Below are positions 17,616 to 55,711 of a stretch of DNA of 64,000 nucleotides, piece by piece. The stretch is from Ceratodon purpureus (Eukaryota; Streptophyta; Bryopsida; Pseudoditrichales; Ditrichaceae). The DNA lies in the NCBI GenBank assembly GCA_014871385.1, contig CM026426.1, positions 41,767,779 to 41,831,778 on the forward strand. The letters are read 5' to 3'. Made by a program: the position numbers and the translations under genes. Positions within the stretch are counted from its first letter, which is position 1; each line of letters starts with the position of its first letter. The notes beneath the pieces were generated by a model. That model saw only the letters and a program-made list of their open reading frames with translations, did no database searches and had not been told where the DNA came from.

Positions 17616-19665
17616 CAGGATCCTGTTGTAGTATCAAAATTGAGAAGATCCTAGAGAAACCATCGCAACCCGACTCTCCAACAACAATCCTAGAAATCGA
17701 AGGAGCGGTATGAAAAGACGACAAACATAAATTACAAACGCAAGTTCAATGATACCGAGATGGAGAGAGCATTGGGCGTTGGTCGCAGCTTGTGAGGCAC
17801 TGCAATCCCCAAGCATTGGTTGTCAGAATTGTGCGAGAGATAAAGAACGCAAAATCGTGTTGTTCAGGCTCCGGATAGTATGCACAGCCCAATTGGTGCA
17901 AATAAACAAAAACCCCAACCCACCATTTCCCCAATGTACAAATACACAATAAAAATAATCTTCTGAATCCCCCTCCCATTTTCGTCCATGACCAACAATC
18001 GATGTTGAGCAAACTGAAGCAGAAGTTTCAAAAGACAAAGGATCTCAAGAAATCCTCAACAATGCCAAACAATGAGCAACCACGCCCTGGTATACATAAT
18101 AATCCAGGCGACATCTAGCCTGATGGTGGTGGACAAAGGTGGTGACAGACAGATGGAGGCAAGGGGTTGGTTTGAAGTCGAATCAAAGCCGCCTGGCTCC
18201 AACCCCACTTCGTCCACTCGACTTTGGTCGCTAGCAGGCACCATCATGGAAATGGCGAGGTAATTCTAATGATTCTCCTAGGTGACGTGACCAGCTTCTG
18301 CAATGGAACGCTGGCAATTGCACCTGTAAAACAAGGTAATTCCTGGCACTGTAACATTTGGATTTTGCCATGTTTTGTATACTTTTCAGGATATATTGGA
18401 ATTTATTTCGCCATTTGGCTTTTATTTGCCAGTAAAAAATACGCTGGTGACCATAGTGACTAGGCTTTAAATCAATATTGAATATTTTAAATTTTAATAA
18501 ACTCAAAGAAGTTTAGTCGAGTTTACGGAATTTATAAAATACATTTGAAAGTATGGAATTGAAACTTATTCATCATCTATATAATTAAATTAGTGTGTCT
18601 TGTAATTTTCAATTGACTTTTAACAAATGTCCCATCATTAAATGCAACATAGACCAAAAAATATATATACAATCTTAAATGTATGGATTTGTAATAAATG
18701 CTAAGAAAGAAAAATATTATCAAAATAAGACTAAAAGATTAAAAAAGATGAAAACAAGATGATTAACATTGAGGCAACAAGTCATAGATATAGAAAATAA
18801 TAGACAAAGGAGAGATATAAAATATGTGGGAGAAGAGAAATGGAAGATATAGGGTGTCAGAAGAATTCAACTTGTCACTACAGAACTAAAAGCTATGAAG
18901 ACTATTAGTAATCTAGAATTGCTTGGGAGCGGGAAGCTATGAGCAATTAGGCGCTCCACGTTTTCCGGTGAGGAGAGTGTTAGGGAGTTAGGCGCTGGAA
19001 GATGTGTGCACAGGCAGCGAAGGACTGGATTTGCTGTGGAGTTTGCTGTGGACATGTTTTGCTTTGCTTCTTGTGAGAGAGATGAGGACATGTGTTGGGT
19101 AGGACTCAAGTGTGTAGAAATCAGATCTAAGACAATGTTTGTGCTGGGGGTTTGATGTTGCAAGTCTTGTAGGGCTAGGACCTGTGTTGGTGCGACGACT
19201 GCCATGAAGCAGGCCACAAACCTCTTACATCTTAGATCCAGTATTCTTACCACTATAGACAGTGCAGAGGAATCCAATGACGCTCTCTCTCAAAAAACTG
19301 GCCTACTCTCTCCAGATCCATAATAATACTTTTGCATATAACAGATTACACATTGAGAGAAGTTCAGTTGATAGTGACTACCGTTACAATCTTAACCATT
19401 TTTCTCACAAACACTGTCTTTCACTCTCTTCCTTACATAGACATAGATAGCTCACTCATCTCACAAACACTCATAGTTGACACATCTCCCTACAGTCACC
19501 CACACCACAGCAGCATATGGCAGCAACTCTCGGATCAGCAGTTCACAACAGCTCCTCGCCGAACAGCAAAAGGCAGCAACTCTTAATAGCAGGACACATC
19601 AACAACTCTTGTATGACTACATCAAGCCAAGAATCTCAACTCCGGGGCGACTTAGCAGCCTCTCA
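17616..19665. other. no gene recognised; leader of the 649-aa ORF at right
   Basis: Left part (17616-18480) has only small overlapping frames on both strands with no domain. From about 18480 the sequence becomes AT-rich. The last about 400 bases before the ATG at 19666 are CA/CT-rich, like a plant 5' UTR. A near-match to the GTCNANTTGAC word (GTCGAGTTTAC, one change) lies at 18516, and half-sites occur near 19470. No terminal repeat of a mobile element was found. Confidence 0.4.
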
Positions 19666-21615
19666 ATGCAAGCTCCACACAGATCTGCAACCATCCAAGA
19701 ACAGCTTCGTGAAGCAGCACATGGAGCACCAAACACCACTCAAGGTAGTTGCAAGCAACAAATCCGACGAACTATGGTGACAACCTGCCTCAGCAACAAC
19801 TGCAATGAGCACAATCTAGAGCAAGATTCGACACCCTCAAGGAGACGCTGGACAAGCATCAACTGCAATAAGCCATCTCCTAAAGAAAAACTTCAACGTC
19901 AATTTGACCAACTGAATGATGCCAAGACCGCCATTTCCAAGCTCTGCACCGAGGAGAGGAATGAGAAGAATAAGCTTAAGGCAGAGTTGGAAAGCTTGAA
20001 GAAGAATCCGCTGGTGAAGGTTGTCAACCCCTCGGATTATGCGACTCTAAAGACCAATAACGAATTGTACCACCGTACTATCGAGGTTGGTAAGAAGCAG
20101 TTGCAGGAGGCCCGGATGGAGAACAGGGCATTGAGAGGAGAACTTTGGAAGGTCGACTTGACATCACCACCAAGTTATTCCCTTTTCCATGCATACGAAT
20201 TGCAAAGGGATAACTGGTTGGCTATGGTGGGGAAAGACAGGGGATGTCTATTGGACAGCGGTGATTTCGATGCGGTATGGGCAGCGTCTAGTAGACATGC
20301 TAATCAGCAGAATCTCATCTGTGAGATGATAGCAAGAGGCGATGTCCAGTTGACCGACCAGAAGAAGTTGTTTCTTCCGATAGGTCACTTGGGAGCTCGA
20401 GTGGTGTTATACTACACCACTCTGGAGGAGCAACTCCAGAAGAGACGTCAACTTGACATGTCGGTGGAGAGTCACAGACTGGTGAAGATGGGCGATTCGA
20501 GTAGACAGGTGGTGGATGTTGCGGAGAAGGTGCCAAGTGAGGAACTCAAGGAGTGGACAGCAACTTTGGAGGGGCTGCTCAAGGAGTTCGATGACCGTGA
20601 TAACATCCTTGTCAAGTTGTCATGTGTGCTGGAGAGGGAGACTTATGCTCAAAGGGGCGAGTTGACCACGGCACACTATGTCTACGGGATGCACAAGGTG
20701 AGACAGCACATCATGGACACCTTGAGAGAGTTGAAGAAGGACCATTTATTCATCACCAGCCATGATCTTCAAGTCGAGTTGACCTTACCTCCACCCACAT
20801 ACAAGGCACCGGGGTGGCTGTCTATTCGAACACCGGTTACAGGATCCCCCTTGACAGTCAAGTACTTGGGGAATTATGCGAGTCTATTTGACAATGAAGC
20901 GGTTTTTCCGCTACCCACGTGGACTGCGATTGAGGGGCTGCTGGAAGATTACGGGCTGTCTCGAAGGGAGGAGCGGTCGTGGGATTTAATTTACAAGGAG
21001 ATTGTCGATGTCAACTGGACTGATGCTGCCCCCGAAGCCGTGAGAACCAATGGACACTTCTGCGATTGTAAGAGGAGGTTCAAGTGGGCTCCAGATAGTC
21101 TAATTGACTCGGTGGAGTATAATTGGCCTCTAATCCCTGGTCAATTTGACACGGCATGGAATTGTGCCACGGCCTATGAGGACTTCTGGCAGATTCACCA
21201 CACACACACCGACCCTGTGTGTTTCCGAGCAGCCATATTTTCCAAGTTTTTAGCTCGGATTTGCAGGGATTTCAAGGTGGTGGTGAATGTGAACCGCTAC
21301 GATGAAAGGAGGCCGAAGTTTTTGATCAATCTCAAGCTCCGTTACCACTCAAGTCGTTGGGGGAGGATGTTGGAAGTCATGGCTATGACTCACTTCCTGT
21401 ACGGGTCTAATGGATGCTTCATCAACGAATTCAGAGGAACTCGGAAAATAGCCATTGATAATTGGCTAACCTTCCAGCATTCAAATAACACTGAATTGCT
21501 TCGGAAGGATGATGAAGTGAGAAGGGAGGTGTCCAAGCTCATGGCACAGCGGATCCAGAAGGAGAGTCATTACGGTGACCAGCACCGTAATCACCACCGA
21601 CGTCATCATGTCTAG
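19666..21615 (+). CDS. 649-aa protein of unknown function with coiled coil, probably TE-encoded
   Basis: Uninterrupted ORF from ATG 19666 to TAG 21613-21615. The frame is open further upstream to about 19477 but has no earlier ATG there. Residues about 1-70 are Gln/Ser/Thr-rich. Residues about 72-162 form a strong heptad coiled coil (LQRQFDQLNDAKTAISKL and onwards). The rest looks globular, with several Trp and Cys residues (CDCKRRFKW near 460) and a His/Arg-rich tail. I recognise no RT, integrase, gag zinc knuckle, transposase or kinase motif, so no function is assigned. At least ten copies of the word GTCNANTTGAC lie inside the coding sequence in all three codon phases, and one overlaps the stop codon. 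More copies fill the 1.7 kb downstream. This suggests that the ORF and its flanks evolve as one unit, such as a mobile element with self-binding sites. No introns are needed. Confidence 0.65.
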   Translation: MQAPHRSATIQEQLREAAHGAPNTTQGSCKQQIRRTMVTTCLSNNCNEHNLEQDSTPSRRRWTSINCNKPSPKEKLQRQFDQLNDAKTAISKLCTEERNEKNKLKAELESLKKNPLVKVVNPSDYATLKTNNELYHRTIEVGKKQLQEARMENRALRGELWKVDLTSPPSYSLFHAYELQRDNWLAMVGKDRGCLLDSGDFDAVWAASSRHANQQNLICEMIARGDVQLTDQKKLFLPIGHLGARVVLYYTTLEEQLQKRRQLDMSVESHRLVKMGDSSRQVVDVAEKVPSEELKEWTATLEGLLKEFDDRDNILVKLSCVLERETYAQRGELTTAHYVYGMHKVRQHIMDTLRELKKDHLFITSHDLQVELTLPPPTYKAPGWLSIRTPVTGSPLTVKYLGNYASLFDNEAVFPLPTWTAIEGLLEDYGLSRREERSWDLIYKEIVDVNWTDAAPEAVRTNGHFCDCKRRFKWAPDSLIDSVEYNWPLIPGQFDTAWNCATAYEDFWQIHHTHTDPVCFRAAIFSKFLARICRDFKVVVNVNRYDERRPKFLINLKLRYHSSRWGRMLEVMAMTHFLYGSNGCFINEFRGTRKIAIDNWLTFQHSNNTELLRKDDEVRREVSKLMAQRIQKESHYGDQHRNHHRRHHV

Positions 21616-23281
21616 TTGACAGTAGCTACAGTGTGTGTGCAAGCTAATCTTTGTATATAATTTTTGAGTCTAGTTGACATAGTGTCTAGTAGACAATGCT
21701 GTAAATGTGAAACTTGCCGGGAGTCAAGTAGACAAAGAGGGGGGCTATGTGAGCTGACTTTTTTTGAGAAAAGTCTCTTTTCAGTAAAAACAGTGTAAAT
21801 AGGACTAAGTTACCATGTCAATTTGATATCCATGTAGATAGTGGCTGTAGAAATCTGGTTGAGAGTCAAATGGACAATAGTGTAGAATTCAGGGGACATG
21901 GCCCTACCTAGAGACACGACTTGTCAAATTGACTCTACGTACAGGCACACCCTTTAGAAATTAAGGCATAACTAGGAATTAAGGAAGAAGAAAGAATTAC
22001 TTCACCACACCACACAACACTGTGTGAGTGATAGTCACATTATGTAAAAAATATAAAAATAGAATTCCATTGTCTAATTGATTGTCAACTTGACTCTAAG
22101 TAGCTCACTGTATAATTGAATCACAATGCTCTTTGTCAATTTGAACTATAGCTTCGATGCACAGTGTATTAATCTGCAGAACTGTAGAATCAGAATGGAG
22201 AATTGGAGCAAGCTGATTACTGTCTAATTAAATTGCAAAGCTTACTGTCAAATTGAAACTGCAGATCTGCTGAACAGTGAATTTATATGTAGTCCATGGG
22301 AGATAGAATGAATAGTTTGATCAAAGGGCTACTGTCTAATTGATAAATTGAATTCAGATTGCTTGCTGCATAATGTCTAGTTATCACTGGTCAAATGGAC
22401 AAGATGGTGGTTTGGTATGCATCCATGGGCATGCATACATTGTCAACTTGACTTGCATGGACCATGTCTAATTGACTTAGTGGAGAATTGGTGAGAGTTA
22501 CAGTGAATGTGGTGACTCACACTGGATACTGTCTAATTGAAATGGATACTGTCTATTTGAAATCGAAGATGCTGATGGAGCAGAGTGAACAGTGGGTGAG
22601 ATTGTCTATTTGAACTCAGAACGAAGGAAAGAGTTACTGAGTGAATAGAAAATAGAAAATATGGAAAATAAAACCAACAGTTTGTCCAATTGACATTGCA
22701 TTGTTGTGAATGGGAATTATGGAAAATGAGAGTTCCATGTGAGTACTGGAACACTGAAGTGAGTATTACTTGATAGTCTTTTAAATTAGATTGGCCATCT
22801 GAAATAGAAGACTGAGAATGACTTGGAGTTTATGGAAGATAGATTGAGTACATTGATGGATAAGAGTGGCATTAATTATTAAGGAGTGATCAGCCTTAGT
22901 GATTATTAGTTCTCATTATAATAAAACTTGAATGTATTCAACTGAGCAATAGTGCAGTCATTGTAATTGAGTAATACAATTGAGAAGCATAGTTGTGATG
23001 AATGGTAGAGTTGGAGTATGATTGAATGTGAATGAGTAGACATGTCTATTTGAAATGCGATGGATGGGAGGAAAAAGATGAAGATAAGCAAGGAGTTGCT
23101 TGAGATAAGTTGATCTATCATAACATATCCCAAAGCATCATTCATAGGCATAAATAGGTTGAACACTAGATTCTAACCTAGTAATGAATGAACTTGCATA
23201 TGCATAATAAATGCATTGTCTAATTGAACTTTGGAAGGGAGTGATGGCAATAAACCGAGAGATGGTACTTGTCAAATTGAA
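19898..23281. repeat. dispersed 11-bp word GTCNANTTGAC, about 34 copies
   Basis: Downstream copies start at 21610, 21668, 21684, 21723, 21817, 21865, 21923, 22072, 22084, 22135, 22222, 22247, 22334, 22375, 22390, 22442, 22466, 22531, 22551, 22604, 22684, 23044, 23218 and 23271. Copies inside the ORF start at 19898, 20152, 20286, 20344, 20447, 20773, 20882, 21010, 21098 and 21140. The word is near-palindromic (GTC-W-A-N-T-TGA-C), with the half sites GTC and GAC most conserved. Sequence between copies is not itself repeated, so this is not tandem duplication. Spacing varies from 12 to over 100 bp. Variants such as GTCTAATTGAA and GTCAAATGGAC are included. Elsewhere in the window I found only one good match (59323). 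Confidence 0.85.
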
Positions 23282-26249
23282 CTCCCATTACCCTTGAACC
23301 AATTGAGAGTTTGGATTACTTGGGTAACATGTGACTTGGGGTAATTAAGACATTAGAGTTATAAAGAGATTCTTTTAAGGAAATACTTTGCATTCTATTA
23401 TTCTTTACTTACTACAGTGACCTTTAGTTACGTTAAAAGCTAAACGAAAAGACCTATTCCCATGACTTACCACTATTTGTAAATTTCACTAATTACAGTA
23501 TGTCTGTTCACCTGCTGGGATCTATTTCATAATAAAAAGTCCAAGTGGATTGCTGGTTTTATTGCAATTGAGAGGAAAAATCAAATGCCCATTTGAAGCT
23601 ATGATGATCATTGCCTCCCTTCTCCTATGTGTTGATTGTCGTTGGTAATGGAGCACCATTGGAGATAACATTGTTTCGGGGTGGTGTAGCTAACCATTTC
23701 TCTGCATGCTGTACTAAGCACATGTCGGACCATTCCAAGTCGTGCCTGATGGTCTGCTCGCGGGAGGGCCCGCCATCACTTACGCAAGGAAGTACTTGTT
23801 GTCTAAGCGAGTTTCTCCATTCGGACTACGAATTCGCGGGTTTGCCAGTGGGGGCGGATGCAGCGAGGAGAAAGAGAGGGAAATATCAACATGCTAGAGA
23901 TGTGTTGAGATCACAGGAGTGTCTATGGATTTGGCTAGAAGCTGTCGGCGTGTTTCAAGAGGACTTTCAGCTCTTGTGTCGCGACATTTCTGCCGTCCGC
24001 CGCCTAAAAACCCGCCTGTAAGCGTCAAACTGCGACCGCGTAGCATTGTTGTAGTTCCAATCTGTGGCAAACTGCACAGGCATTATGCATCCGATCTGCG
24101 TGCACGTTCCCGCAGAATGCGTGGCGAAGAGTAGGGTCGCGCGGATACAGGAAGGTCGGACAATCATGCAGACGCGGACTGGAGGTCGAGAGATTGAACG
24201 AGTGTGGGAGGAGTGTGCATGTGTGCATGCATGATGGTGGAAGTTGGGATGTCGAACGAGGACGACGCCACTCCGCCGGGATAGAATTAGAGATGTTGGC
24301 ATGGTTTCAGAGGAGATGGAAGCTAGAGACGCTGCGTTGGGATCTCATGGTTCTATAAGGGCAAATGCTGGATTCCCTTCTGCGACACGCGGATCTTCCG
24401 GCTTTGCTATGAAATGAAAGGTAGTCAATTCGGAAGACAAACATGAAAGCTCTGAGTCTCACAAAACTACGGACTCTAAGTTTTAACAATATTGCTAGTG
24501 AACGATGCCGTATCTTGGTCAAATGTCCGATATTGTGAACAAACAAGAGGGTTTTTGGCAAGACACTTGATTTTAATAGACGAGGGAGGCGCTGATAATG
24601 ACTCTGGAGCCTACCAATCTCATAATAATTATCTTTGGGTTCCACTTTACATGTTGTCTATATGTGTGCAAAGTATTTTGATAGATTAGTCCCCATTACT
24701 ATTATATTTTTTTCCTGTTAATTACTATGTTTATGTTTCGCTGTTTTAAATATATTGATGGTACCTTCGTAAGGATAGTGCTATTTTGAATGTGCCCCGT
24801 AATTTAAAATCCCCTTTTCTGTTTCGGGGTTTCTGGTATTTATATTCGTTGTGTTTATCCATCTAGTTCGGCTTCTAAGCACACAAACATCTTCCAACCT
24901 TTTTATGGTAGAAAACTAGTTGCGAATGCGTAGTGTTGACAATGAAGATTCTCCTTGTTTAATCGTATAATATTTACTTCTATACTACTTAGAATTCCTA
25001 GCTTGTTCAATGTCCTTCTTTGATTTCAGGGACTTGGATGGCCAATTCGCCTCCAATTCCTCAACATATGTCCTAGGTTTTGAAGATTTGGTGGCAATGG
25101 ATGAGGCTGCTCTCCTTCGCATGTACCTTCGTATCGGATTTCCCATGCTCACAATAGCGGTAGAATGCTTCGGACCTTGTGCTCGGGATGACCTCCCGTT
25201 ACAACCTCCTCTTGGCTTTCCATACACGTTGTTGTCCTTCCACTTGCACTCTTGATAAGCTGAAATGCAGACACCTCCTCCCAACCCTTGTACCTCGTCT
25301 ACACGAATGTCCTTGACTCCACTGCCTGCCTCTGGAGTAGTTTCCTTAATGGTGTTCCCAACCACCTTGTTCAGGTCGAGATTCCAGGTGAGCAAGAACT
25401 CTAAGACCTCATCCTCAAGACTAGTGATGATACATGGATCCATCTTAAAACTAGGAAGGAATTCTCCACACGTACCTGTGGGCTGGATGCATCAAAAGAG
25501 ACTTGTGTTCCCACACCTTCCACTCACATATCATTGCAGACATTGCGCAATCTCATTCGCCATACGCCCTTTACTGGGCTTGGCGGCCTTAGATTGAATC
25601 CACCCGTATTCTGCCTGCTACCCCAATCCGATTGTATCAAGTCATCATTTGTGTGAGACCGGATCACCACAACTTTGAACGGGAGGCCGCAAGTTTGGTA
25701 TCCATTTGGCCAGCATTGTATTCATTGTCTAAGGAGCAATCCGTCTGTCCGGCGTCGGGTAGTTTTTCACAAGGGCCCGGCCCCTGTTTTGCGCTCTAGA
25801 AGAACAATATGATATTTTTTATTCGCCCTTGTAATCAACTATGTCCGCCTTCGCAGCATCTGTGCCCAAGGATCACATCCAACCCTATAGTACGCTCACG
25901 TTCTGGCCGGCAGACCACGTCCGTGCCTTCAATCCGTCGAGGTACCTCATCCAAGTCCGATCACGGTGCGACCGTTGTCCGCCTCGAAATTTAGCTAGTT
26001 TGCCTATCCATGGTTGGTCCTTCTTTGTATATGGGCCACTCTTACTGTGTGCCATTGAACTCCTTCGACAACGTCTTAGATTGCCATGTACAAAGAAATC
26101 TTGTCGCTCTTTTTGACTATGCGGTCACAAATTAAATCTCGTAGGTCGATTGCCATTGACCCCGGTCTCGTCCGACCTCGTCCCCACCACCCTGAACAGA
26201 TCCTCCAACTTCGTTTTCTTGTCCAGGAGTGGCTCGTTCAGGGCCTCAT
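23282..26249. other. no clear gene; ordinary spacer
   Basis: Only small frames. A plus-strand frame at 23611-24021 and minus-strand frames near 24307-24645 show no domain. An ATG-initiated minus ORF at 24985-25443 is listed separately. The right end borders an LTR at 26250. Confidence 0.4.
24985..25443 (-). CDS. hypothetical 152-aa ORF, doubtful
   Basis: ATG at 25443, TAA or TAG stop at 24985. The predicted protein is polar, with an acidic/amphipathic start (LEDEVLEFLLTWNLDLN) and a basic C-terminal third ending in a short Lys/Ser-rich coil. There is no recognised domain. The same strand upstream (25444-25750) contains several stops, so it could be the last readable part of a decayed gene rather than a small gene. 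No promoter or splice evidence. Confidence 0.25.
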   Translation of the reverse strand: MDPCIITSLEDEVLEFLLTWNLDLNKVVGNTIKETTPEAGSGVKDIRVDEVQGLGGGVCISAYQECKWKDNNVYGKPRGGCNGRSSRAQGPKHSTAIVSMGNPIRRYMRRRAASSIATKSSKPRTYVEELEANWPSKSLKSKKDIEQARNSK

Positions 26250-26636
26250 TGGTAAAGGGAGGATTAAACAACTAAACCCTAGCCTTCACAACCCATCAAA
26301 ACCCTACAAAACCCAACATAATTGAATACCTAAACCACTCATACAACGCTAGAAATACACAATTCAAGTAGGAAAGTGAGCCAAAGCTGCATAAAATGGG
26401 TCAAAACAGCCCCTAAACTATAGTACAATAGCTTCTAACAGCTCTTAATCCTCTCTTACTCTAACTGCTCTAATGTAGAATGATTATAAGAAACCCTAAT
26501 CTAGCCTCTTAAACCTCCAAGTCGGCTCTGATAGAATATATCCAGCCGACTGGATGACTGTCGGGGACACGGATGAAAACTGCAAAAAAGCCAATGGAGA
26601 TTAGGGGGGGAGAGATTAAGGTATCTGTGGTTAACA
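26250..26636 (-). mobile_element. LTR of retrotransposon F (same family as D), inverted
   Basis: Reads TGTTAACC...TTTACCA on the minus strand, 387 bp, and aligns along its length with the plus-strand LTR at 29512-29996. On the minus strand it is preceded by a polypurine tract (AAAAAAGGGGATAA), which marks it as a 3' LTR of a minus-strand element whose body lies to the right. The 5-bp flanks do not match at the two family LTRs, so no target-site duplication is assigned. It lacks the extra 25-bp tandem copies of the 29.6-kb LTR. Confidence 0.75.
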
Positions 26637-29511
26637 TTATCCCCTTTTTTGGAGTTCCGTCCTCACAACGCGAGGGACAATGGAAAGATGAGAAAAATAA
26701 AACCCGGCCTAAGAAAAGGAAAGAATAAAATGGGCAATCAAAAAATGAATTAATATTTAAAACAAGTAAACTACAAATACTAAGCCGCAGCCGAATAAGT
26801 GTTGATGGCAAAGGTGATGGAGCCAGTTAGTGGATCGGCTGTGCCAAAGTTGGCTTTGCGCGGGCTGGCTCGTCATCCTCAAGCCATGGCTCAAAATTTG
26901 GGTCGCAGTCTTCAAACCGTTGCAGCCAACGCTGTTGCCAGACAAAATCGGCTCAGTGGGAAGTAAGTGCAATGTCAAGATTTTGATGCTTGGTGGCGGC
27001 ATAGTCGCGGACTGCACGACTCAACTCACCCGGAGGAAGAGTGGAGGAGGCCAACTACAAAGTAAGCCGCTGATTTTTGAGGACAAGTAGTTCAGCCTAT
27101 TGTGGGCGGGCGCTAAATTGCTCCTCCAGCTCTAGACGGCAAAGTGAGGGCTTTGGTTGGGGATGTTGGACAGTGGCAGCGGCTAACAAGTCTTGTAACC
27201 TGCTGACTATAGCATGCTGGATGGTGTTTAATAAGAACAAGGCATCACAAGCTTCAACAAAGGCCTAGGACCAATGTGGAAGATCTGCAATCTGCACGAT
27301 GAGCTCTCTCAAGTGAGACTCCAAAGCAGTAGCTCTACTGTCGCTGGATAGTCGTGTGGCCTCCAACTGACGTGCGGCGGCACGTGCCTTGACAAGGACA
27401 GTTGCCATGGTTGAAATTTGTTCATCAGGATCTGAAAATCGGAAGTAGAGGTGGCGCCCATTGGAAGACTGTCGAGGGAGTCAACGAGACTTCTACCAGA
27501 AGAACCACCTGACTGTTGTCATAGAGGTCGCCTCAGCTGCGGAGTGCCAGCGCAACTACGGCCAGCTGAGTCAGTATGCGGGACCTGAGAGGAACGGGGA
27601 CCAAAAGTGAAGGCCTGTCCGGCTGCAGGTGCAACTGGCACTGTAGGCCAAGTAGTTGGCTATATAAGGCGGTTGGAGGCAACACGCGGGCACCAAGGGA
27701 CGATTTCCCTACCGGTAACGCGGAGATCCCGGTTTATCATGACCTTTGCTGGTGTCAAAGTCGGCGGTGTAACAACCAGTGCCGAGTGCACAAAGCACCC
27801 CGGGGATGATAGTGGCGGCAGTCCCATAGCTCATGATGCGGTAGAGAAGCTGCCGACATGCTCAAGGGGCACTCGCAATAGAGCAATAGCTCGACTTACA
27901 ACTAGGGTCTCAGAACCCGAGGAAACAGCAGCAACCACAGGCATAGGAGTGTCCGAACGTAAGGGGTACCGACAAGATGGAGACCTTGCGCCCATGGACG
28001 GTAGTTCCCGTGGAACAGACTAGGGTGGAGTAAATAGGTCGACATGTTGGCTGCAAAGGCCATGTTGTGTGATACGCCTGCTAGGTCCATCCTCATCAGA
28101 TGATCACTTCTAAGAATGAGACGTTGGTGTAATAAACAGAGCTGAATCGACCAAGTCACTAAATGTAGCTGGCAGGTGGTTGCCGCTCGTTTGACCTCAC
28201 AAGACGAAGCCGACTAGATTTGGAGGCCGTGGGTCGCTGACTGGTGCGCCCTTGTGGCTGCCGTCGAGTGTAGCAACACTGGAAGAAACGGGAAGTGGTG
28301 CAGTAACATCCTCTCGCTCCGGAAACCACAAGGAGAGTATAGCATCCATTACTGGCGCCCCTCGGAGTCGTCTCAAGCTTGGGGCCTTAGAATGAATATA
28401 GACCACATGTTGGCAGAGGTTGGTTAAAACAAAGCGAGACCAGTCGAGAGTCTTCTGTCTGGCTGCAGCCTCCACGGCAGCAAAAATGTGCTCTATCAAA
28501 TCTTTGCTGACAAAGTGAGGGTGCTGCTTGAAACCAATGGCGTTTCCTAACGCCTGAAATTGGACCTGATATGCCGGATGTTATGCCGTGACACAATTGC
28601 CGTCATGCTTGTGGTCATGTGTTCTGAGTCTACACCTAGAGTAACGGCGCTCTTAGCCGTGCACAAGCTTGTGCCGAGCCAAGTCGGCACCCGCTTCAAA
28701 AACCAATGCCGCCCGAATTACAAATACTGTAATTTCAACAGGCTTTTCTCCAACCATAGATCGGATGGGGCCGCCAAGCTCGGTGGCGGGTCAACGTGTG
28801 CCCTTCAAAGGCTATACATACTCGAAGCCCTCGACGAAGTCCAGCAGTAATTTGGTGCGGGGTTCAGGCCAATTAAAGTTAAAAATATTTTTGAGGCTCA
28901 TCTCAGAAGCCCAGTCCTCATCTGCCATTGCTGTCCACGGTGTCTAGTGAGTATAGGGCTCGAATTGGACCTCCCAACAATGATGCAGCTGTCGCGGGAC
29001 ATGAAGGCACTTAGGCATGCGTCCATCTACCGATGTGAGTTTGCATTTGACCCTTCAGCGCTGGACCTCGGACGAGGGCGTGGTAGCTCTTGTCCGCAGT
29101 GTAGGCTCGGAAGGTGGTGCTACTACTAGTCGCACTGCACGTACCGCAATTAGAGCCAAATCAGGTGCAGCAGGTTGATCACCGTTGTTGACTGCAGCTG
29201 CAAGCATCGCTGGTGGCGGTTAGCTTAGTTCCCATTTTTCCATGGATTCTTGGCTAGCAGTGCGATGAAGGAGTCCGCACGCAAAGTAGAGCTTTAAAGT
29301 ACGAAATGAACCGTAGCGTCTTCGTTTACAAGGACGGGGTTGTTGGTGGTGAGCTGAGTCGGCGCTGGCGATGTTAAAGTCGGCCCTGGCAACACACGGA
29401 GCGGGTTCTTGATAGCAGTGCAGTGGAAATTCGAACACATCAGATTTACCATTACTCTCAGTAGAGCACTTTAAATATCCGAGTGAAGAACACAATTGGT
29501 AACATAGAAGG
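26637..29511 (-). pseudogene. retrotransposon F internal region, decayed accessory ORF
   Basis: Minus-strand coding remnants occur without long frames. Around 27420-27080 a coiled-coil-like Ala/Leu/Glu-rich segment is broken by two TAG codons. At 28499-28197 a segment (EHIFAAVEAAARQKTLDW...) has the same pattern of residues as the domain at residues 150-205 of the LTR-encoded ORF of element C: an aromatic/aliphatic helix, then DW, then a second helix. No RT or integrase motif was seen. The word AGTCGGC (AGCCGACT on the other strand) recurs (26519, 27760, 28684, 29355, 29380), tying this body to family D. The expected minus-oriented 5' LTR on the right is missing; a plus-oriented LTR sits there instead, so a rearrangement has occurred. 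Confidence 0.5.
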
Positions 29512-29996
29512 TGTTAACCGGAGATTCTCCAATCTCCCTTATCCTTTTGTTTCCCTTAGCTCCATTTCAGTTTTCATCCTTGTCCCCGACAGTCATCCAG
29601 TCGGCTCGATGAACTCTATCACAGCCGACTTGAATGAACTCTGTCACAGCCGACTGGATGAATTCTGTCACCAGCGGACTGGATGAATTCTGTCACCAGC
29701 CGACTGGATGATTTCTGTTAGTTTTCAGGGGGTTTAAGAGGCAGGTTTAGGGTTTTGGGAGATCATTCTACACTAGAGCAGGTAGGGTCATAGAGGTTTA
29801 AGAGCTTCTAGGAACTGCTGTACCACGTTCTCAGACTGTTTTTGACCCATTTTATGTAGTTTTGACCTCTTTTTGCACTAGTATTGTCATTTCTAGCATC
29901 TTATGAGGGTTTGGAGCAATTAGCTTAGTTGGGTTTTGTTGGGTTTTGATGAGATTGTGAAGGCTAGGGTTTAGTTGGTAAATCCTCCCTTTACCA
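29512..29996 (+). mobile_element. 5' LTR of retrotransposon D
   Basis: 485 bp, TGTTAACC...TTTACCA, followed after one base by a primer binding site at 29998. Homologous in inverted orientation to 26250-26636. Contains a 25-bp tandem expansion at 29606-29723. The element it starts (leader, gag, protease) reads on the plus strand up to 34604, where it is cut by the LTR of element A. Confidence 0.78.
29606..29723 (+). repeat. 25-bp tandem repeat, about 4.5 copies, in LTR D
   Basis: Unit GATGAATTCTGTCACAGCC plus GACTG, with small changes between copies. The related LTR at 26250-26636 has only about one unit, so the array expanded within this family. Confidence 0.8.
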
Positions 29997-29997
29997 T

Positions 29998-30009
29998 TGG
30001 CGACCATGC
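29998..30009 (+). other. primer binding site, TGGCGACCATGC
   Basis: Starts two bases after the LTR end. The same 12-mer lies just inside the 5' LTR of element A (minus strand, 55710-55699), so it is conserved in this family. It begins with TGG as expected for pairing to a tRNA CCA end, but I cannot match it to a primer tRNA from memory. Confidence 0.65.
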
Positions 30010-34892: not shown

Positions 34893-35747
34893 GGCGTAGC
34901 GAATAGCAGTTTTGGCTCTCTCTGAATGTTGTATGAAGGCTAGACTTAAGCTTACGAGCTGTCTTTCCGAACTCTGTGTTTTCTCCTTTAATACATACCG
35001 AGGTCACCTGGTTGACACTCGGGCACGAGGCTAAGTCCTTGGCATTCTGCACTCTCACTCTCTCACCCTCGCACCTTTGCTTAGCGTTGGTAGCTCTCAT
35101 AATTTCCCTTTTGAATGATGCCCTATCTGCCTGTCTTCTTTAGCTGTTGCCTAAATATTGTACTTTGTCTGCTTTAACTCAGTCGTCACCCTTGACTGTC
35201 CCTGGGTGTTCTAGGAACAGACTTCTCTAAGTCTACAGTCACGGTTCAACCTGGACACCACGGTCACCAGCCTTCCTCTTGTTCAAGTCTCTCTCTACCT
35301 ATAAGTACCCTGTCTCTAGAGTCGCACTAACTATCCGGTCTCATACCCGCTCGAACTCCTTACCCCCTGTGGAAAGTGATTTCCACGGTTGACACACCGG
35401 AATACTAATTCCGGTAGGAAAATGATAAAAAAATTAAAAATTTTATGTTAGAAATACGGAAGTACTCAGCCTATAAGTAGAACAACCGGTTAAGCCGGTC
35501 GGCTGAATAAATAAGTGACCGGAAAGCCCGCCGGGTGAGATCCGGTCGTCTGCGGTGGAGGAGAGACGGGTACAGTCCATATGACAGAGCCCTGACCCGG
35601 CGGACTTAAGGATAACCACCAAACGGTACAACGCACACGGGGATAATGGCTGCAACCATTAAAACGCCGCCGGTCGCGACCGTCCAATGATGAGGGGCTA
35701 CAACCGTCCGTAATGATGAGCTACGAACGGGTGGGCGCGAGGGCAGG

Positions 35748-35754
35748 TATAAAA
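35748..35754 (+). promoter_or_regulatory. TATA box of element C (5' LTR)
   Basis: TATAAAA in GCAGG-TATAAAA-GGAGG context. The first ATG more than 30 bp downstream is that of the LTR ORF at 35957, giving a predicted leader of about 180 nt. Confidence 0.75.
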
Positions 35755-35956
35755 GGAGGAAGAACCGCCATGCTCCTCCTTTCTCTTTGTCATTTTGTGG
35801 CACGACGGGTCCTTGCGCTCTAAGGCGGAGGGCGCAGTTAGGGTTAGACGGTAGGAGAGAGACGGTGAGACGGAAGTGTTTCCGTTAGGCGAGGGATTGT
35901 GGTGAGGATCGTGCGTGCAGGTGTTACCGGAGAGACGGAGAGGAGGACTTAGCAGA

Positions 35957-37822
35957 ATGGGTAGGAAAGGGAAGGAACCGGCGGCGGAAGGACAGTCGTT
36001 CAGGGTACAACGGGTAATGCCGTTGATACCGGCCGGCGAGAAGGAGAAGGAGCTCCTCCGGACCGCCTTGGAGTCTATGAGATGTGAGGTCCTACTGGAC
36101 AAGGCATGGGGTTGGAAGCTTGCCCTTCCGGCCCAGGAGATCCTCGTCAAGAATCCCGAGAATCGAGGAACCATCCGGGGAGAGCCGGATAAGTGGACGG
36201 CACAACTCTGGAGGGAGACGTATGGTTTCAAGAACTCCGGCGAGGTCTCGACGCCGGAGCCCCGGGACTTCGTACACCGGTATCTCAAGGGGACCGGAGA
36301 TCCGAGAGAAGGATGGGGGCTGGATGACATTGTGGATCCGGAGGCCCGGAGAGTCGTAGGGTTTATGAACCCTATTTTCCATCCGGAAAAGCCCAAACGG
36401 ATCACCAACAAGTGGGCGTCCGTTTTCATTGGGGCCATGATCGGTGAATTCACGGTGGACTGGGGGGTCATGATGAAGACGATAGTTGACCGACAGGTGG
36501 CCAATCTCCGGAAGACCAAGAAGCAGGCCACCTGCCTTCCGTCTTTCCTCATTCACCTCTACCGTACTAAGGGGCTGTTGAGTGCTGAGGAGGTCCGGGA
36601 GTACGATGAGCTCTTAAGCTATCAGCAGTTCGCTGAGCCGGAAGAAGTGTCCGACCAGGACGACGATGAGGATGTTATTGAGGTCTCCCCCACGCCGGCT
36701 AAGAGACCCCGTCCTAGCCCGGAAAAGGGACAGCCATCCGGATCACCTCGGACTCCCGTACCGGCCAAGCGAACCCTGAACACGGAGATCCAACAGCCCA
36801 CCGGACCACCGGAGCACACCGGAGATCCGTATCAGGACTTAGTTAACCTATCGGAGCAGGCGACGACGTATGCCCGGTTCTTACAGTCGACTAGGAAGGC
36901 GGAGGGCCGGTTGGCTAGGGAGGTAATGATCCTTACGGGTTCGGACCGGTTGGAGGATTGCCTGAATATTCTTCGCAAACACCGGGACTTGGCCGGTCTC
37001 CAGGAGAAGCACATGGACCGGCTGGCGAAGTACTGGGAGACGAATCGGAAGCTCGAGGAGGAGGTGCGTGATGCCCGGAAGGATTTCAATGACGCCCGTG
37101 ACCGGTCAGTCGAGGCCATCCGGTCGGTCGCCGAGATCAAGGCCACTTTAGCTCTTCCGGTAGATGTGGCCAATCAGTGCGCCGTTTACCAGGCCTTCCT
37201 GACCCGTCAACCGGATCCGACTATGAAGAATATTATAAAGTTCATGCACGACCGGACGCAGGTGATGAGGGATACATGGATGATGATGAAGAACCTGGTG
37301 GAAGTCCTCGGTTTCGCAGAGGCCGGTCCGTCATCAGGGCCACCGGCAAATCAAGAGGATCCCAGACCACCGTCCCCAACCAGGGAACCGGCACCGGTAC
37401 CACCTCCAGCCTCTCCGATACGGTCGGCCATCCGGCCAGCCCAACAGGAGGTAGGACACCCGCTGGAGGATCCTATTCCGGATACCTTGAGCAGTCTGCA
37501 CACTCTACCCAACTTGGATGGAGTCGAGACTGTTAACCCCGGAAACATTCCTTTGGGACCGGACCAGAGAACACCACCGGTAGATTTTATACCGGTACAG
37601 GGATCTCCAGAAACGCTCCAGGTGGATCTCAGCGCAGTTCCGGTGGCGGCACGATCTCCATCCCCGGCAGTTCAAGTAGACCGATCCCGGAAGTCCAGCG
37701 AACCGTCAGCATCTGCGGCTCCGGAAGAAGACCCCCCGTTGAAGAAACTGAAGCGGGTACAGAAGAAGGAACGGTTGGACGGAACCCGGCACAGTCCCCG
37801 GCTAGATAAGCACAAGGAGTAG
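35957..37822 (+). CDS. LTR-encoded 621-aa accessory protein of element C (intact copy)
   Basis: ATG 35957 to TAG 37820-37822. The frame opens earlier at a GTG, but 35957 is the first ATG after the TATA box. Residues 30-220 form a globular domain with the motif FIGAMIGEFTVDWG near 157-170 followed by LPSFLIHLYRTKGLLS. Residues 226-242 are acidic. Basic stretches at 247-252 and about 593-605 (KKLKRVQKK) look like nuclear localisation signals. Residues 300-400 are predicted coiled coil, and 455-590 are Pro-rich. It has no zinc knuckle, protease, RT or integrase motif, so it is neither gag nor pol. The 28.2-28.5-kb remnant of element F shows a similar residue pattern, hinting at a widespread accessory family in these elements. 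Function unknown; a nuclear role in element control is inference. Confidence 0.85.
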   Translation: MGRKGKEPAAEGQSFRVQRVMPLIPAGEKEKELLRTALESMRCEVLLDKAWGWKLALPAQEILVKNPENRGTIRGEPDKWTAQLWRETYGFKNSGEVSTPEPRDFVHRYLKGTGDPREGWGLDDIVDPEARRVVGFMNPIFHPEKPKRITNKWASVFIGAMIGEFTVDWGVMMKTIVDRQVANLRKTKKQATCLPSFLIHLYRTKGLLSAEEVREYDELLSYQQFAEPEEVSDQDDDEDVIEVSPTPAKRPRPSPEKGQPSGSPRTPVPAKRTLNTEIQQPTGPPEHTGDPYQDLVNLSEQATTYARFLQSTRKAEGRLAREVMILTGSDRLEDCLNILRKHRDLAGLQEKHMDRLAKYWETNRKLEEEVRDARKDFNDARDRSVEAIRSVAEIKATLALPVDVANQCAVYQAFLTRQPDPTMKNIIKFMHDRTQVMRDTWMMMKNLVEVLGFAEAGPSSGPPANQEDPRPPSPTREPAPVPPPASPIRSAIRPAQQEVGHPLEDPIPDTLSSLHTLPNLDGVETVNPGNIPLGPDQRTPPVDFIPVQGSPETLQVDLSAVPVAARSPSPAVQVDRSRKSSEPSASAAPEEDPPLKKLKRVQKKERLDGTRHSPRLDKHKE

Positions 37823-38891
37823 TTTTTAGGATAAGGACCGGATAAAATGGCAGCGACTAACGATGGGGCTCCAGTGCACCCGGCTGCCAATCCGGATAGA
37901 TAGCGGCAGTAACTAGGAATAGAAGGCGGCTACCGGTCCGGGATTCCCGGATCCAAGATCCGGAATTTCTGGATCTCGGTGGACCACTTGGTCGCTTTGG
38001 GAACCGATAGGTTTTAGTATTTAAGTTAGACGTTTTTCCAAGGCCGGGGCCTTGTTTTTTTTGTACGCTGTTTTGTTGTTGCAATTGAGAATATACTTTT
38101 GGATTTGTTGTGTCAACCGGCTGCTGACGGGTCCGTTGCCGTATGGTTTGCGGTTCTATTGTCTTCAGTAGTGTTCTGGAGGAGTGTTGAACAGTAGGAA
38201 GGTCAGGAGAGCGCCCGGAGAGACTGGGGAGGTGTCAAGCGTCGAGTGTTGACGGTTTCCAGTCCCGGAAGGAGCCCGTAGGGAAGGAGAGACGTATTGC
38301 AGCAGGGCTGGTAGTCTCAAGGACACGGAGAGCCGTGTGTACACCGGGATCCGGAAACGGACCGGTCGCTTCCTGTAGATGGGATAAAAGCCGGATGTCC
38401 TACTGCGAACCAATCCGGAAGGGAGATAGTATAGTAGAATACTGTGCAGCCGTAAGGTGATGTCATTGTAGTATGATTTCCGTATCCGTAACCGGCACTG
38501 AGTAGTTATCCGGACCGGTCCCTAGCCGTACGGAAGGATTATTACTCCACTTCTCGGGTGGTAGATAGGAACAGTGGGGTGTCCAGCCACTATAAGTCAC
38601 GGGACGGTGGAAAATCCAGCCACTTGAAAGGATAGACGGATCAGTGGGAACCGGCCACTAGTCTAAAAAGCCGGAAAATAGGAACGAGGCAAAAACTACC
38701 GGATTCGTCCAACCGTCTGTAAGACGGAGTACGGTCGGACACTGGTGGTGATTTCCGTTAAAGTCTAAAAGAAAGAAAACTATAGGTCTTCGAGGGAACG
38801 AACACGGAGTGGTTTACTTTGGAGGGTACTTAGTGTGAATTAAGTGCCTTCCGGAGGAATACGGATACCACGTCGTGCTACATGTGATTTT

Positions 38892-38911
38892 TGGCGCCGC
38901 TGCCGGGGATC
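38892..38911 (+). other. primer binding site, tRNA-Asp type
   Basis: TGGCGCCGCTGCCGGGGATC, nine bases after the LTR end. It matches the complement of the plant tRNA-Asp 3' end with one change (C for T at position 10). This primer is typical of Athila-type elements. Confidence 0.8.
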
Positions 38912-38976
38912 TATATGATTTTCTTTCTCCGGATTTCTACGGTTGTCACTAACCCAAGTCAGGTTGTAGGAAACGC

Positions 38977-40542
38977 ATGAATCCGAATTCTGAGCCGGAA
39001 GGAGTACGGAGGTCTAGTAGAAAGAAGAAGGGTGATCAGGAGACGGAAGCCAGACCATTCGTCACTACTAGATCAGAATTTATTGAAGACACAGATCAAG
39101 AGATAGCTGGGACTTCCGGATCCGGAGGTCAGGGTGGGACAGTACCACCCGGGCCGGTGGCCGGAGGACCGGTAGCGGGTCTTCCTATGGCCCGGACGTT
39201 CTCCAGACTGAAGTATCGGAAGTTCAGGGGCGATGGCCGGGAGGACGTGGACGAATGGCTAAGTGAGTTCAAGGCCACGGCTGCTGCCAACCAAGAGGAC
39301 GAAGCAATCAAGTTACGGTTGTTCCAGGGATTACTCAAGAAGGAGGCACTCTTGTGGTACCAAGAGGAACCGGACAACGTGCGAAGAAGTTGGGGTTTGC
39401 TATCAGATGCCTTCCGGAGGGCCTTCCGGGAGGTAGGAGGAGAAGCCCGAACATTGGGAAAACTTAGTAAAATCCGGATGGAGCCGGAGGAGTCAGTCCG
39501 CCGGTACGGACAGAGGGTTAGGAGTTTAATTCATAAACTAAGTCCCGGAATTGCAAACAGTATCCAGGTAGAATGGTACGTCGCTGGGTTACCCGACCAG
39601 ATGGGGTTCCAAGTAAGGCAGACCCGGCCACAGACTTTACCGGAGGCCATGGAGGCCGCCCAGAACTATGAGAACTCCAAGCAGTCCATACGGCAGTACC
39701 GTAAGGCAGGGAAGACCTCTAGACGTCTTCGAAAGGTCCGGAGGAACCGGGATTCTAGTTCAGAATCCAGTGGATCCAGCTCCGAAGATAGCTCGGAAAC
39801 CGGAAGCAGCAGCAGTGAAGAGGATCGCTCACGACGGAAGGCGTCAGGTAGCAAGGGCTACCGGAAGGACAAAGAACGAACGATAGTCCGAGTAAAGGAG
39901 GAATACCCATCGGAGAAACGGATGATCAAAGATCTGGTGAACAGCATTGAAGAACTTAAAGTCCAGATGGCGGAAGAGAAGAAAGCACGGAAGGCGTTAC
40001 CCACCGTCCGGAACAATGTGTGGTGCACCAACTGCGGGAAACCGGGACATTACAACCGGGAATGCCCACACGGAGCGCCCAAGAGAGTGCAGTTTGTGGA
40101 TGAAGAGGGGTCAGTATTCTTTGCGGAACCTGCTTATGAAGAGGAGGAAGTGGAGATGCTACCGGTTTACCAGGTAAACCCGGCCTATGGTCGTGGACGG
40201 ATGATACAGCCGGTTATCAGACCTCGACCCGGAATGGGCTATCCATCCGGTGGGCATCCGGCCCCGCCGGCACGACCACCCGTCTCAGTGGAACGGCAGT
40301 TTGGATGCTGTTATATTTGTGGAGAAGCCGGTCATTATGCTAACAATTGTCCACACCGAGGAGGTCAAGGCGCACCGTTGGAACTTCCGTGTCAAAACTG
40401 TGGTCAGTACGGCCATAAGTCACCCCAATGCCAACAACCGGTTAGACCTAGGGCTATCTATAAGCAAGTGGAAGAACCTCCACGGGAGCGTACCGGGCTC
40501 AACTACGGTCACAAAGACGGAGTAGAGAATCCGCCAAGTTGA
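38977..40542 (+). CDS. gag: element C Gag (521 aa)
   Basis: ATG 38977 to TGA 40540-40542. It forms virus-like particles and binds element RNA. Residues about 80-235 are the retrotransposon gag (capsid) domain (VDEWLSEFKATAAANQ, LLWYQEE, RRYGQRVRSLIHKL). Residues 245-300 are a Ser/Arg/Glu-rich linker. Three CCHC zinc knuckles, CX2CX4HX4C, lie near residues 350-363, 445-458 and 472-485. It follows the primer site by about 65 bp. The stop is UGA followed by CGG, with the same frame open for another 180 codons. Because the LTR ORF comes first on the transcript, gag translation must rely on splicing, reinitiation or a second start; I cannot tell which. Confidence 0.88.
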   Translation: MNPNSEPEGVRRSSRKKKGDQETEARPFVTTRSEFIEDTDQEIAGTSGSGGQGGTVPPGPVAGGPVAGLPMARTFSRLKYRKFRGDGREDVDEWLSEFKATAAANQEDEAIKLRLFQGLLKKEALLWYQEEPDNVRRSWGLLSDAFRRAFREVGGEARTLGKLSKIRMEPEESVRRYGQRVRSLIHKLSPGIANSIQVEWYVAGLPDQMGFQVRQTRPQTLPEAMEAAQNYENSKQSIRQYRKAGKTSRRLRKVRRNRDSSSESSGSSSEDSSETGSSSSEEDRSRRKASGSKGYRKDKERTIVRVKEEYPSEKRMIKDLVNSIEELKVQMAEEKKARKALPTVRNNVWCTNCGKPGHYNRECPHGAPKRVQFVDEEGSVFFAEPAYEEEEVEMLPVYQVNPAYGRGRMIQPVIRPRPGMGYPSGGHPAPPARPPVSVERQFGCCYICGEAGHYANNCPHRGGQGAPLELPCQNCGQYGHKSPQCQQPVRPRAIYKQVEEPPRERTGLNYGHKDGVENPPS

Positions 40543-40545
40543 CGG
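40540..40545 (+). promoter_or_regulatory. candidate stop-codon readthrough site UGA-CGG
   Basis: Gag ends AGT-TGA-CGG. UGA followed by CGG is an established leaky context in several plant RNA viruses (tobravirus-type readthrough). The downstream frame stays open to 41088. A supporting RNA stem-loop was not worked out. Confidence 0.5.
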
Positions 40546-44162: not shown

Positions 44163-44173
44163 AAAAGGGGTAA
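44161..44173 (+). other. element C polypurine tract
   Basis: GAAAAAGGGG followed by TAA directly before the 3' LTR TG. The purine run ending in GGGG-N-TAA before TGT recurs at the LTR borders of A and F. Confidence 0.8.
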
Positions 44174-55710: not shown

Positions 55711-55711
55711 A

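Follow-up and report, generated by a model that had tools for sequence, protein, structure and literature searches.

The main result is the enrichment of a palindromic word, GTCNANTNGAC, and its confinement to one lineage of Ty3/gypsy LTR retrotransposons, in the window (the whole 64-kb stretch of moss DNA analysed here) and elsewhere in the genome. The reading we favour, and hold to be rather probable, is that the word forms a DNA self-recognition code read by a protein of the element, with the product of an extra gene, ORF2, as the most likely reader, acting like VANC on its own LTR and body.

The earlier note had described an 11-bp near-palindrome in about 34 copies saturating an ORF and its 3' flank. 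The saturation is real and, against shuffled and Markov sequences, stronger than claimed. The 11-bp word was confirmed, but its fuller consensus is a true palindrome, and copies with at most one mismatch were counted at 38 places (16 + 22). Exact GTCNANTNGAC occurs 24 times in the 64 kb, with 22 of these copies at 19898-22694 and the other two, outside the main field, at 18212 and 58844. The originally described word, with up to one mismatch and on both strands, gave 85 matches in the window compared with 16 +/- 5 after shuffling (100 shuffles, largest value 29). The ORF fragment 19888-21615 contains 11 exact sites, whereas 2,000 synonymous-codon shuffles averaged 0.77, the highest having 4 and none reaching 11; the five one-mismatch copies in the ORF were near the shuffle level of 3.4. 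The copy at 21610 extends beyond this fragment and is additional to the 11. Between 21616 and 23281, 10 exact sites and 21 copies with at most one mismatch were found, whereas 1,000 Markov sequences averaged 0.009 and 0.5. Equal density of the word in unrelated DNA, raised beforehand as a possible objection, was not observed, as sampled genomic DNA held 1 exact copy in 170 kb (17 places). Pairs of the word within 1-30 bp numbered 547 genome-wide, and pairs of the reversed pattern 2. From C1:21064056 onwards the word forms a dense tandem array; none of the 69 ORF2 matches listed lies close to it (68 of 132 candidates scored). The claim that the DNA between copies is not repeated was nearly right: flanks in the 3' part share a mean identity of 7/24, about chance, the exceptions being one tandem pair at 22523-22562 and a few duplicated flanks.

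Homology to other copies indicates that the window copy is a Ty3/gypsy LTR retrotransposon of which a broken 3' part remains. The 3' part of ORF2, from about codon 445, lies at 19889..21615 (+) and represents the last ~56% of a 1,019-codon frame, an extra gene after pol, with its TAG stop at 21613-21615. The 5' truncation junction is at 19888/19889. Upstream of it no homology to the compared copies was found, and 19477..19888 (+) is unrelated sequence outside the element which is open in the ORF2 frame by chance, so the 649/712-aa frame cannot be taken as one gene. Downstream, a short segment at 21616..21747 (+), with a purine-rich tract before the LTR, leads into a 3' LTR of 1,750 bp at 21748..23497 (+; TGTGAGC ... 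TTACA, the end base being shared by three copies). What had been regarded as a mere 3' flank is thus mostly the element's 3' LTR. A TSD was not found for the window copy, the 5' end of which is lost, and the window contained no RNA families at gathering scores and no tRNAs.

The 11 exact ORF2 sites span 19898..21150 (no strand assigned) and start at 19898, 20152, 20246, 20286, 20344 and 20447 (phases 1, 0, 1, 2, 0 and 1), then at 20773, 20882, 21010, 21098 and 21140 (phases 0, 1, 0, 1 and 1). Copies in all three codon phases were therefore confirmed, except that those in phase 2 do not read GTCNANTTGAC, which would contain TGA; in the window ORF and the intact copy their position 8 is some base other than T. 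The copy over the stop codon was verified as GTCTAGTTGAC at 21610..21620 (no strand assigned), in phase 0 and including the TAG. Three exact sites follow in the segment between ORF2 and the LTR (21668, 21684, 21723) and seven in the 3' LTR at 21865..22694, again without strand (21865, 21923, 22084, 22390, 22442, 22466, 22684). The LTR also carries 11 one-sided sites, GTCNANTTGA[A/T], at 21817..23281 (+), in which the changed base is always at position 11 (starts 21817, 22072, 22135, 22247, 22334, 22531, 22551, 22604, 23044, 23218, 23271).

An intact copy of 16,403 bp was identified elsewhere in the genome (C10). It meets the definition of a Ty3/gypsy element by its near-identical TG...CA LTRs, TSD and gag-pol domains in Ty3 order: the LTRs (TGTGAG...TTACA) are 1,758 bp each and 99.94% identical, the 5-bp TSD is TGTCT, and Pfam recognised Retrotrans_gag, zf-CCHC, RVT_1, RT_RNaseH, Integrase_H2C2 and rve, with RT preceding integrase; the protease gave a weak match only (E 0.0044), below the cut-off. 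The moss element is young. ORF2 is an extra ORF in sense orientation, situated after pol and before the 3' LTR, and a 1.6-kb spacer follows pol. The intact copy holds 46 exact GTCNANTNGAC, in the 5' LTR (8), spacer (10), ORF2 (17), post segment (3) and 3' LTR (8), at average distances of 160-220 bp. The leader and gag-pol (8.1 kb, half of the element) contain none, nor do 5.3 kb of DNA outside this copy. In the synonymous-shuffle test the intact ORF2 had 16 sites against 1.0 expected (maximum 5 in 1,000 shuffles), and the 6.6-kb gag-pol ORF 0 against 0.004 expected.

This distribution bears on a reading in which the word is a transposase-like signal, bound not by ORF2 but by integrase or some other mobility protein. 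The word is indeed element-borne and present in LTRs, and CACTA transposases, which use subterminal repeats, offer a parallel. However, within the 1,758-bp LTR the exact sites are found at 117-936 bp, away from its ends, and sites fill ORF2 and the spacer while sparing the leader and gag-pol. We consider a mobility site quite unlikely.

Conservation of the letters was analyzed in an alignment of up to eight element copies. Fixed letters in ORF2 sites never differed (0/1,048), compared with 581/21,522 (2.7%) in the background, and third codon positions within these sites varied in 0/46 columns versus 244/973 elsewhere (p 4e-6). In the post-ORF2/LTR part, 2/96 site columns varied versus 129/1,290 (p 0.006). 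The N positions of sites were variable at 1.4-2.3%. The fixed bases of 10 one-sided LTR sites were conserved too (2/503 letters differ). The fixed bases of the word are under purifying selection at the nucleic-acid and not the protein level, in agreement with the earlier claim, which is borne out by the synonymous shuffles, the invariant third positions and the reverse-translation scan described below. The opposite view, that selection favours recurrent peptides (such as SxLD/VxLT) and the DNA word merely follows from them, is hardly credible. Some sites do coincide with conserved protein positions of the clade (GQFD, SLFD), but one DNA word in three frames encodes three unrelated peptides, the noncoding LTR and spacer bear it as well, the amino acids at shared sites change with the N bases (SQVD/SQFD/SQLD/SQID; CLLD/SQLD/CQLD), and invariant third codon positions contradict it.

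The two halves of the word occur in a strict arrangement. In the field, 22 half-site pairs were at spacing 1 and none at 0 or 2-6, and half-sites alone were not enriched, only the full palindrome with its 1-bp centre. TTGAC is the W-box core and LTRs commonly gather host factor sites; the host being plant-like, a host transcription factor (WRKY, TALE homeodomain or another TGAC-core binder) might drive the element through the word. Against this stand the unenriched half-sites, the strict centre and the lone TTGAC cores, which outside sites are rarer in the field (0.88 per kb) than elsewhere (2.67); moreover, a host factor would not readily explain 17 sites within a coding frame. TTGACY, on either strand, is present in 12/22 exact sites, and the WRKY alternative mentioned in the earlier note is disfavoured, as double half-sites spaced by 1 bp are required. 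A W-box array with singly functional TTGACY was rejected, only full palindromes with a 1-bp centre being enriched. Overall, a host-read word appears unlikely.

The reverse-complement symmetry, the fixed 1-bp centre and the one-sided sites in both orientations in the spacer and ORF2 (position 1, 14; position 11, 15; two elements) argue for double-stranded DNA rather than RNA as the form recognized. If the word instead worked in RNA, where Gag or ORF2 would read it as a scattered signal for packaging, export or translation, this symmetry would not be needed; the mixed orientations (14:15) and the lack of sites in leader and gag-pol, half of the element, also speak against it. The RNA reading agrees with the expected transcription of LTR, spacer and ORF2 and with the single orientation of one-sided sites in the LTR regions (0:15); we judge it unlikely as well. 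That single orientation is not explained by a symmetric dimer alone.

The word is restricted to one clade of ORF2 proteins, also within one host genome. The association with this clade was recovered from proteins alone by a reverse-translation scan of 9,216 palindromes against 100 family proteins, P0001 included. Of 921,600 scores, all of the top five belonged to this word and to the P0001 clade. The 11 clade rows showed 86 encodable sites versus 7.8 expected, and the other 89 rows 55 versus 58.8. The sites occupied 30 distinct alignment positions (8 non-redundant rows), while the runner-up among 256 like words occupied 18. Enrichment was weaker in P0004, P0005 and P0008 than in other clade members, and absent from P0011-P0014, outside the clade. 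The top word of P0004 was ATCNANTNGAT (9 versus 1.2), perhaps a drifting form of the word; a protein search with P0004 matched P0004 only.

What had been predicted for P0003-like elements was then seen in the DNA of a second family of the same genome, L033, which has 29 exact sites in 8 kb (0.09 expected), ranks this word top of the 9,216 palindromes and has no exact sites in its pol end. Its ORF2 is 42-53% identical to that of the window family. In a common alignment only 5 of the 16 and 14 ORF2 sites share a column, so that most sites were gained or lost separately. In 16 kb of a sister family of this genome (L031) no exact site occurs; its pol end, spacer and ORF2 follow the order seen in the motif-bearing families. 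This family was placed just outside the motif clade (SH-aLRT 91, long branches), and no comparably enriched short word, palindromic or otherwise, was found in L031/L032. The other anticipated objection, that homologues of the ORF elsewhere lack the word, did not hold, as the close relatives carry it. The more distant sister family without it delimits the motif-bearing lineage, and the contrast between two ORF2-clade families with the word and a sister of the same gene order without it also speaks against a host factor. The pol end of L033 is 88% identical in nucleotides to that of the window family and that of motif-free L031 73%. Since pol similarity parallels that of ORF2, descent alone cannot tie the word to ORF2 over pol, and this parallel is in accordance with the integrase reading. 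No relatives were confirmed in viral contig and genome contig collections.

Neither the window ORF (E 0.1) nor the intact ORF2 (E 0.05) matched any Pfam family, and no DNA-binding domain or VANC-type DUF1985/DUF287 was recognised in them; for other ORF2 family members the comparison covered the 25 commonest of 70 weakly matching Pfam families. The C-terminal half of ORF2 has a conserved Cys/His set. P0001 had no PDB match at E 1; family profiles gave weak PDB matches, mostly to coiled-coil chains (best E 0.007), and another family profile matched one chain at E 1.2. PF20167, sought as a sign of kinship with Athila ORF1, was weakly matched in 9/32 full-length homologues (best E 2.3e-4), scoring 18.5 in P0036 and 20.8 in P0084 with a cut-off of 45, and did not match the intact ORF2. 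Distant members of the ORF2 family matched Transposase_32 weakly, a family linked with sunflower Athila ORFs in one account (PMC11728184).

Self-recognition of the VANC type remains the best reading of the word, while the element itself is neither a VANDAL/MULE nor a CACTA transposon, the types first offered for comparison, but a Ty3 LTR retrotransposon. Both DNA transposon types were ruled out by the LTRs, 5-bp TSD and gag-pol, and for CACTA also by sites not limited to the ends. VANC anti-silencing proteins act in Arabidopsis VANDAL (MULE) DNA transposons (PMC5735166). As in the excerpts on that system, a TE-encoded protein is presumed here, and a short family-specific word is dense in the encoding element and rare elsewhere (PMC5735166, PMC10398659). 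The same excerpts describe related VANDAL families with different words, for which protein-target coevolution was proposed, and a VANC21 motif, YAGTATTAY, found mainly in noncoding DNA and spreading by tandem repeats. In contrast, the moss host is an LTR retrotransposon, and its word is an 11-bp palindrome within the coding frame of the presumed reader, common to ORF2s only 42-53% identical.

Among retrotransposons, the element resembles Athila/Tat (OTA) as a Ty3 element with no recognised chromodomain, long LTRs, and an extra ORF and noncoding DNA between pol and the 3' LTR; the excerpts on those elements describe no self-word (PMC6317226, PMC7264820). The Physcomitrella lineage Phygy is described as short, with coding sequence across nearly its whole interior (PMC6317226). 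Retand extra ORFs are reported as antisense, with a predicted DNA-binding TRP28 domain and in flowering plants only, and the excerpt names no target word (PMC11963269); the moss ORF is sense, with the target word evident and the domain not. Among papers containing the literal word in any of six spellings, none of the excerpts concerned a recognition motif of such kind, and the matches listed for like systems included no such word in a retrotransposon.

Accessory transactivators act on retroviral LTRs, and foamy virus Tas/Bel1 acts on the LTR and an internal promoter. By analogy, ORF2 may be comparable as a 3' accessory product with LTR sites and a promoter inside the element, although the moss sites also fill the gene itself and the internal promoter is only guessed.

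In the proposed mechanism, the Ty3/gypsy element would write the GTCNANTNGAC code into both LTRs, spacer and ORF2, sparing leader, gag and pol. Some protein would bind the word in double-stranded DNA, with a dimer probably occupying the two half-sites, and this protein would be encoded by the element, most likely as the ORF2 product. Coating of LTR, spacer and gene body at many sites could pick out element copies from host DNA and keep them transcribable, by countering silencing and/or activating transcription in trans; the spacer is possibly ORF2's own promoter. Our confidence falls from dimer binding to double-stranded DNA, through an element-encoded reader (likely ORF2), to anti-silencing or activation. 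A more specific version, in which an ORF2-encoded sequence-specific DNA binder of non-VANC origin marks and de-silences its own provirus through a palindromic code that dictates part of its protein, is given somewhat less than an even chance; the code in that version comprises LTRs, internal promoter and ORF2's own reading frame.

Excerpts of two accounts call it unclear or unknown what the additional ORFs between pol and the 3' LTR do in plant retrotransposons, and treat regulation by DNA binding as conjecture (PMC7264820, PMC11963269). In the moss element the presumed target can be read from the sequence, is under selection that can be measured, and is bound to a lineage, in that two families about 50% apart have it and a sister family of the same genome does not; therefore, the role of such ORFs is open to test. 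If true, the reading would carry TE self-recognition beyond DNA transposons into LTR retrotransposons and give one additional ORF of a plant LTR retrotransposon a function. ORF2 also illustrates clearly how a reading frame can be composed around a DNA code.

The scan, which finds a DNA word from proteins alone, is usable for seeking other such codes. Two further palindromes were weak leads, just above 40 column-shuffled nulls: TCANTNANTGA in clade C (12 rows; 18 positions versus 6.9, z 5.1, highest null 4.2) and GACNATNGTC in clade D1 (13 versus 3.8, z 4.4, highest null 4.0). The GACNATNGTC signal in clade D1 is in part a conserved DYG position.

The window copy of the element is the broken 3' part of an LTR retrotransposon, with a fragment of ORF2 (an extra gene between pol and the 3' LTR) at 19889-21615 and the 3' LTR at 21748-23497. 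A 649-aa ORF had been taken as one gene in the earlier note. However, alignment to other copies begins only at 19888/19889, and therefore the 649/712-aa frame consists of a truncated ORF and unrelated upstream sequence to which it is joined by chance. At least 69 matches to the ORF were detected in the same genome (68 of 132 candidates scored), at least 58 of the match rows, window included, showing 80-100% identity, some of them being pieces of one copy. A frame of 1,019-1,020 codons without internal stop was present in at least 30 of these rows. The more distant matches among those listed were one row at 51% and ten at 40-43%. Three copies shared their terminal base (...ACYAATTACA).

A complete copy of 16,403 bp was identified on contig C10. 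Its LTRs (1,758 bp, 99.94% identity) displayed TG...CA ends and were flanked by the target site duplication TGTCT; the primer-binding site was TGGCGCCGCTGCCGGGGA, which we take to resemble tRNA-Asp. Gag and pol share a single 2,193-codon frame, which was followed by a 1.6-kb spacer, ORF2 (1,019 codons, stop to stop) and the 3' LTR. Pfam searches of two gag-pol pieces (E 0.05) matched gag, zinc knuckles, RT, RNase H and integrase; a chromodomain was not found in these pieces. The element is thus a Ty3 LTR retrotransposon, and in its layout it resembles Athila. It is neither a VANDAL nor a CACTA element, the two kinds with which the earlier note compared the spread of the word. A tandem satellite with a period of ~150 bp starts directly after the 3' LTR (from ~393 of the C10 locus L029), so this copy sits within or adjacent to a satellite array.

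The 11-bp palindrome GTCNANTNGAC, spelled GTCNANTTGAC in the earlier note, occurred in 22 exact copies in 19898-22694 and in two more in the rest of the 64 kb. When one mismatch was allowed and both strands were counted, GTCNANTTGAC was found 85 times in the window vs 16 per window in shuffles. The coding part held 11 exact copies vs a mean of 0.77 and a maximum of 4 in 2,000 synonymous-codon shuffles, and all 11 peptide positions of P0001 (the window ORF protein) that permit the word carry it in the DNA. The reported saturation of the ORF and its 3' flank is thereby upheld, as is the expectation that other DNA is less dense, since 17 sampled places of the genome (170 kb) contained one exact copy.

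In the C10 copy, exact sites were distributed as eight in the 5' LTR, none in the leader or gag-pol, 10 in the spacer, 17 in ORF2, three in the segment after it and eight in the 3' LTR; the 5.3 kb analyzed outside the element had none. Among 9,216 gapped palindromes GTCNANTNGAC ranked first from spacer to 3' LTR (38 vs 0.08 expected), while the top palindrome of leader and gag-pol was a different word (6 vs 0.28). The intact ORF2 used the word at 16 of the 18 peptide positions permitting it.

Conservation was analyzed in eight aligned copies (seven loci and the window), or seven for the first six ORF2 sites, which lie upstream of the break in the window copy. Across the 17 sites in ORF2, none of 1,048 letters at fixed bases differed vs 581 of 21,522 in the background; because the copies are related by descent, letters are not independent, and it is safer to rely on counts of columns. 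Of the third-codon-position columns, none of the 46 within sites was variable vs 244 of 973 (p 3.6e-6). Among fixed columns of the post-ORF2/LTR part, 2 of 96 were variable vs 129 of 1,290 (p 0.006), a count including one site found in just two of the eight copies. The N positions (1.4-2.3% variable) were nearer the background (2.1-2.7%).

Lone half-sites were not enriched, and the centre was always 1 bp. The fields of two elements contained 52 copies with a single mismatch, 44 of them altered at an outermost base. Such changes in spacer and ORF2 of the two elements were divided 14:15 between the ends, a pattern independent of orientation and consistent with recognition of dsDNA. Those in the LTR regions (the 3' LTR of the intact copy, which corresponds to 21748-23497 of the window, and 5765-8000 of L033, a second word-bearing family) were divided 0:15, all at position 11 on the + strand. 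This polarity possibly reflects shared descent of the LTR sites or directionality in how sites are arranged at the promoter.

The inheritance of the word was followed in a set of 100 family proteins, including P0001, by counting from protein alone, for each palindromic word, the peptide positions able to encode it. The top five of 921,600 scores were all GTCNANTNGAC (P0007, P0002, P0001, P0003 and P0009). The P0001 clade (11 rows) had 86 encodable positions vs 7.8 expected, with weaker enrichment in P0004, P0005 and P0008, and the remaining 89 rows had 55 vs 58.8. The clade formed one side of a single branch (SH-aLRT 100) in a 59-row tree that included the 9 of 11 members long enough to enter and drew a program warning of long branches. 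Where positions were shared, the encoded residues differed according to the word's N bases (SQVD, SQFD, SQLD, SQID; CLLD, SQLD, CQLD). The top reverse-translated word of P0004 was ATCNANTNGAT (9 vs 1.2), one outer base pair from that of the clade, possibly a drift of the code. In clade P0053-P0068, positions encoding TCANTNANTGA, a similarly laid-out palindrome, were weakly overrepresented (18 vs 6.9); this could represent a diverged code or coiled-coil composition.

From the protein scan, elements like P0003 were predicted to carry the word. L033, the 51% row from the same genome, is 64-70% identical to P0003 and 42-53% to ORF2 of the window family. In its 8 kb the word ranked top of 9,216 palindromes, with 29 exact sites vs 0.09 expected: none in the pol end, six in the spacer, 15 in ORF2 and eight after it, so that an ORF homologue carries the word as the earlier note had anticipated. 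When both families were placed in a single alignment, just five ORF2 sites fell in the same column as a site of the window family, indicating that most were gained or lost separately. No exact copy was detected in 16 kb of L031 and L032, from the 41-42% family, which order pol end, spacer and ORF2 likewise in the same host genome; both were placed immediately outside the clade (SH-aLRT 91). Presence of the word in L033 and its absence from L031/L032 within one host is not what a reader provided only by the host would predict. Pol ends were graded likewise (88% nucleotide identity to the window family for L033, 73% for L031), and therefore descent alone cannot choose between ORF2 and pol as partner of the word.

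The word is under selection, lineage-bound and confined to LTRs, spacer and ORF2. A dimeric, element-encoded reader would bind it, most likely the ORF2 product, because the word tracks the ORF2 clade and crowds ORF2's own gene. Such a reader would act by anti-silencing and/or transactivation, a role inferred by analogy with VANC21, which is described as binding YAGTATTAY clusters in VANDAL21 and stripping methylation from the whole element (PMC5735166; PMC10398659); the likeness to VANC proteins is one of inferred function only. No DNA-binding domain was recognised in ORF2. Cys/His residues kept in the C-terminal half of 32 family members (C838, C841, C873, H884, H887, C892 and C906, P0004 numbering) possibly form a metal site.

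Outside the window, at C1:21064056-21064798 and beyond, GTCNANTNGAC recurs at intervals of 25-34 bp, with one longer gap, in a dense tandem array far from any ORF2 match among the matches listed. This array could have arisen by tandem expansion of the VANC kind in a different family, or could be an unrelated repeat.

The window lies on C6, a 110.5-Mb contig of the 362.5-Mb assembly (151 contigs), and this contig is probably the V chromosome. The 13 large contigs among 17 queried comprised this one and twelve of 16-29 Mb (sum ~356 Mb). The U and V sex chromosomes of Ceratodon purpureus are each described as >100 Mb (PMC8000587). The window also contains a second element of the Ty3 type (35368-44473), which has gag/pol ORFs and identical repeats of 300 nt spaced 8.8 kb apart. 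Its 98% identical relative adjoins an ORF2-bearing copy on C8, the homology of which stops at their junction. Direct repeats at 47752-56489 (90-93% identical, 8.1 kb apart) are likely LTRs of an older element. At 26247-29999, inverted repeat arms of 75-81 nt, 77-85% complementary, lie ~3-3.6 kb apart.
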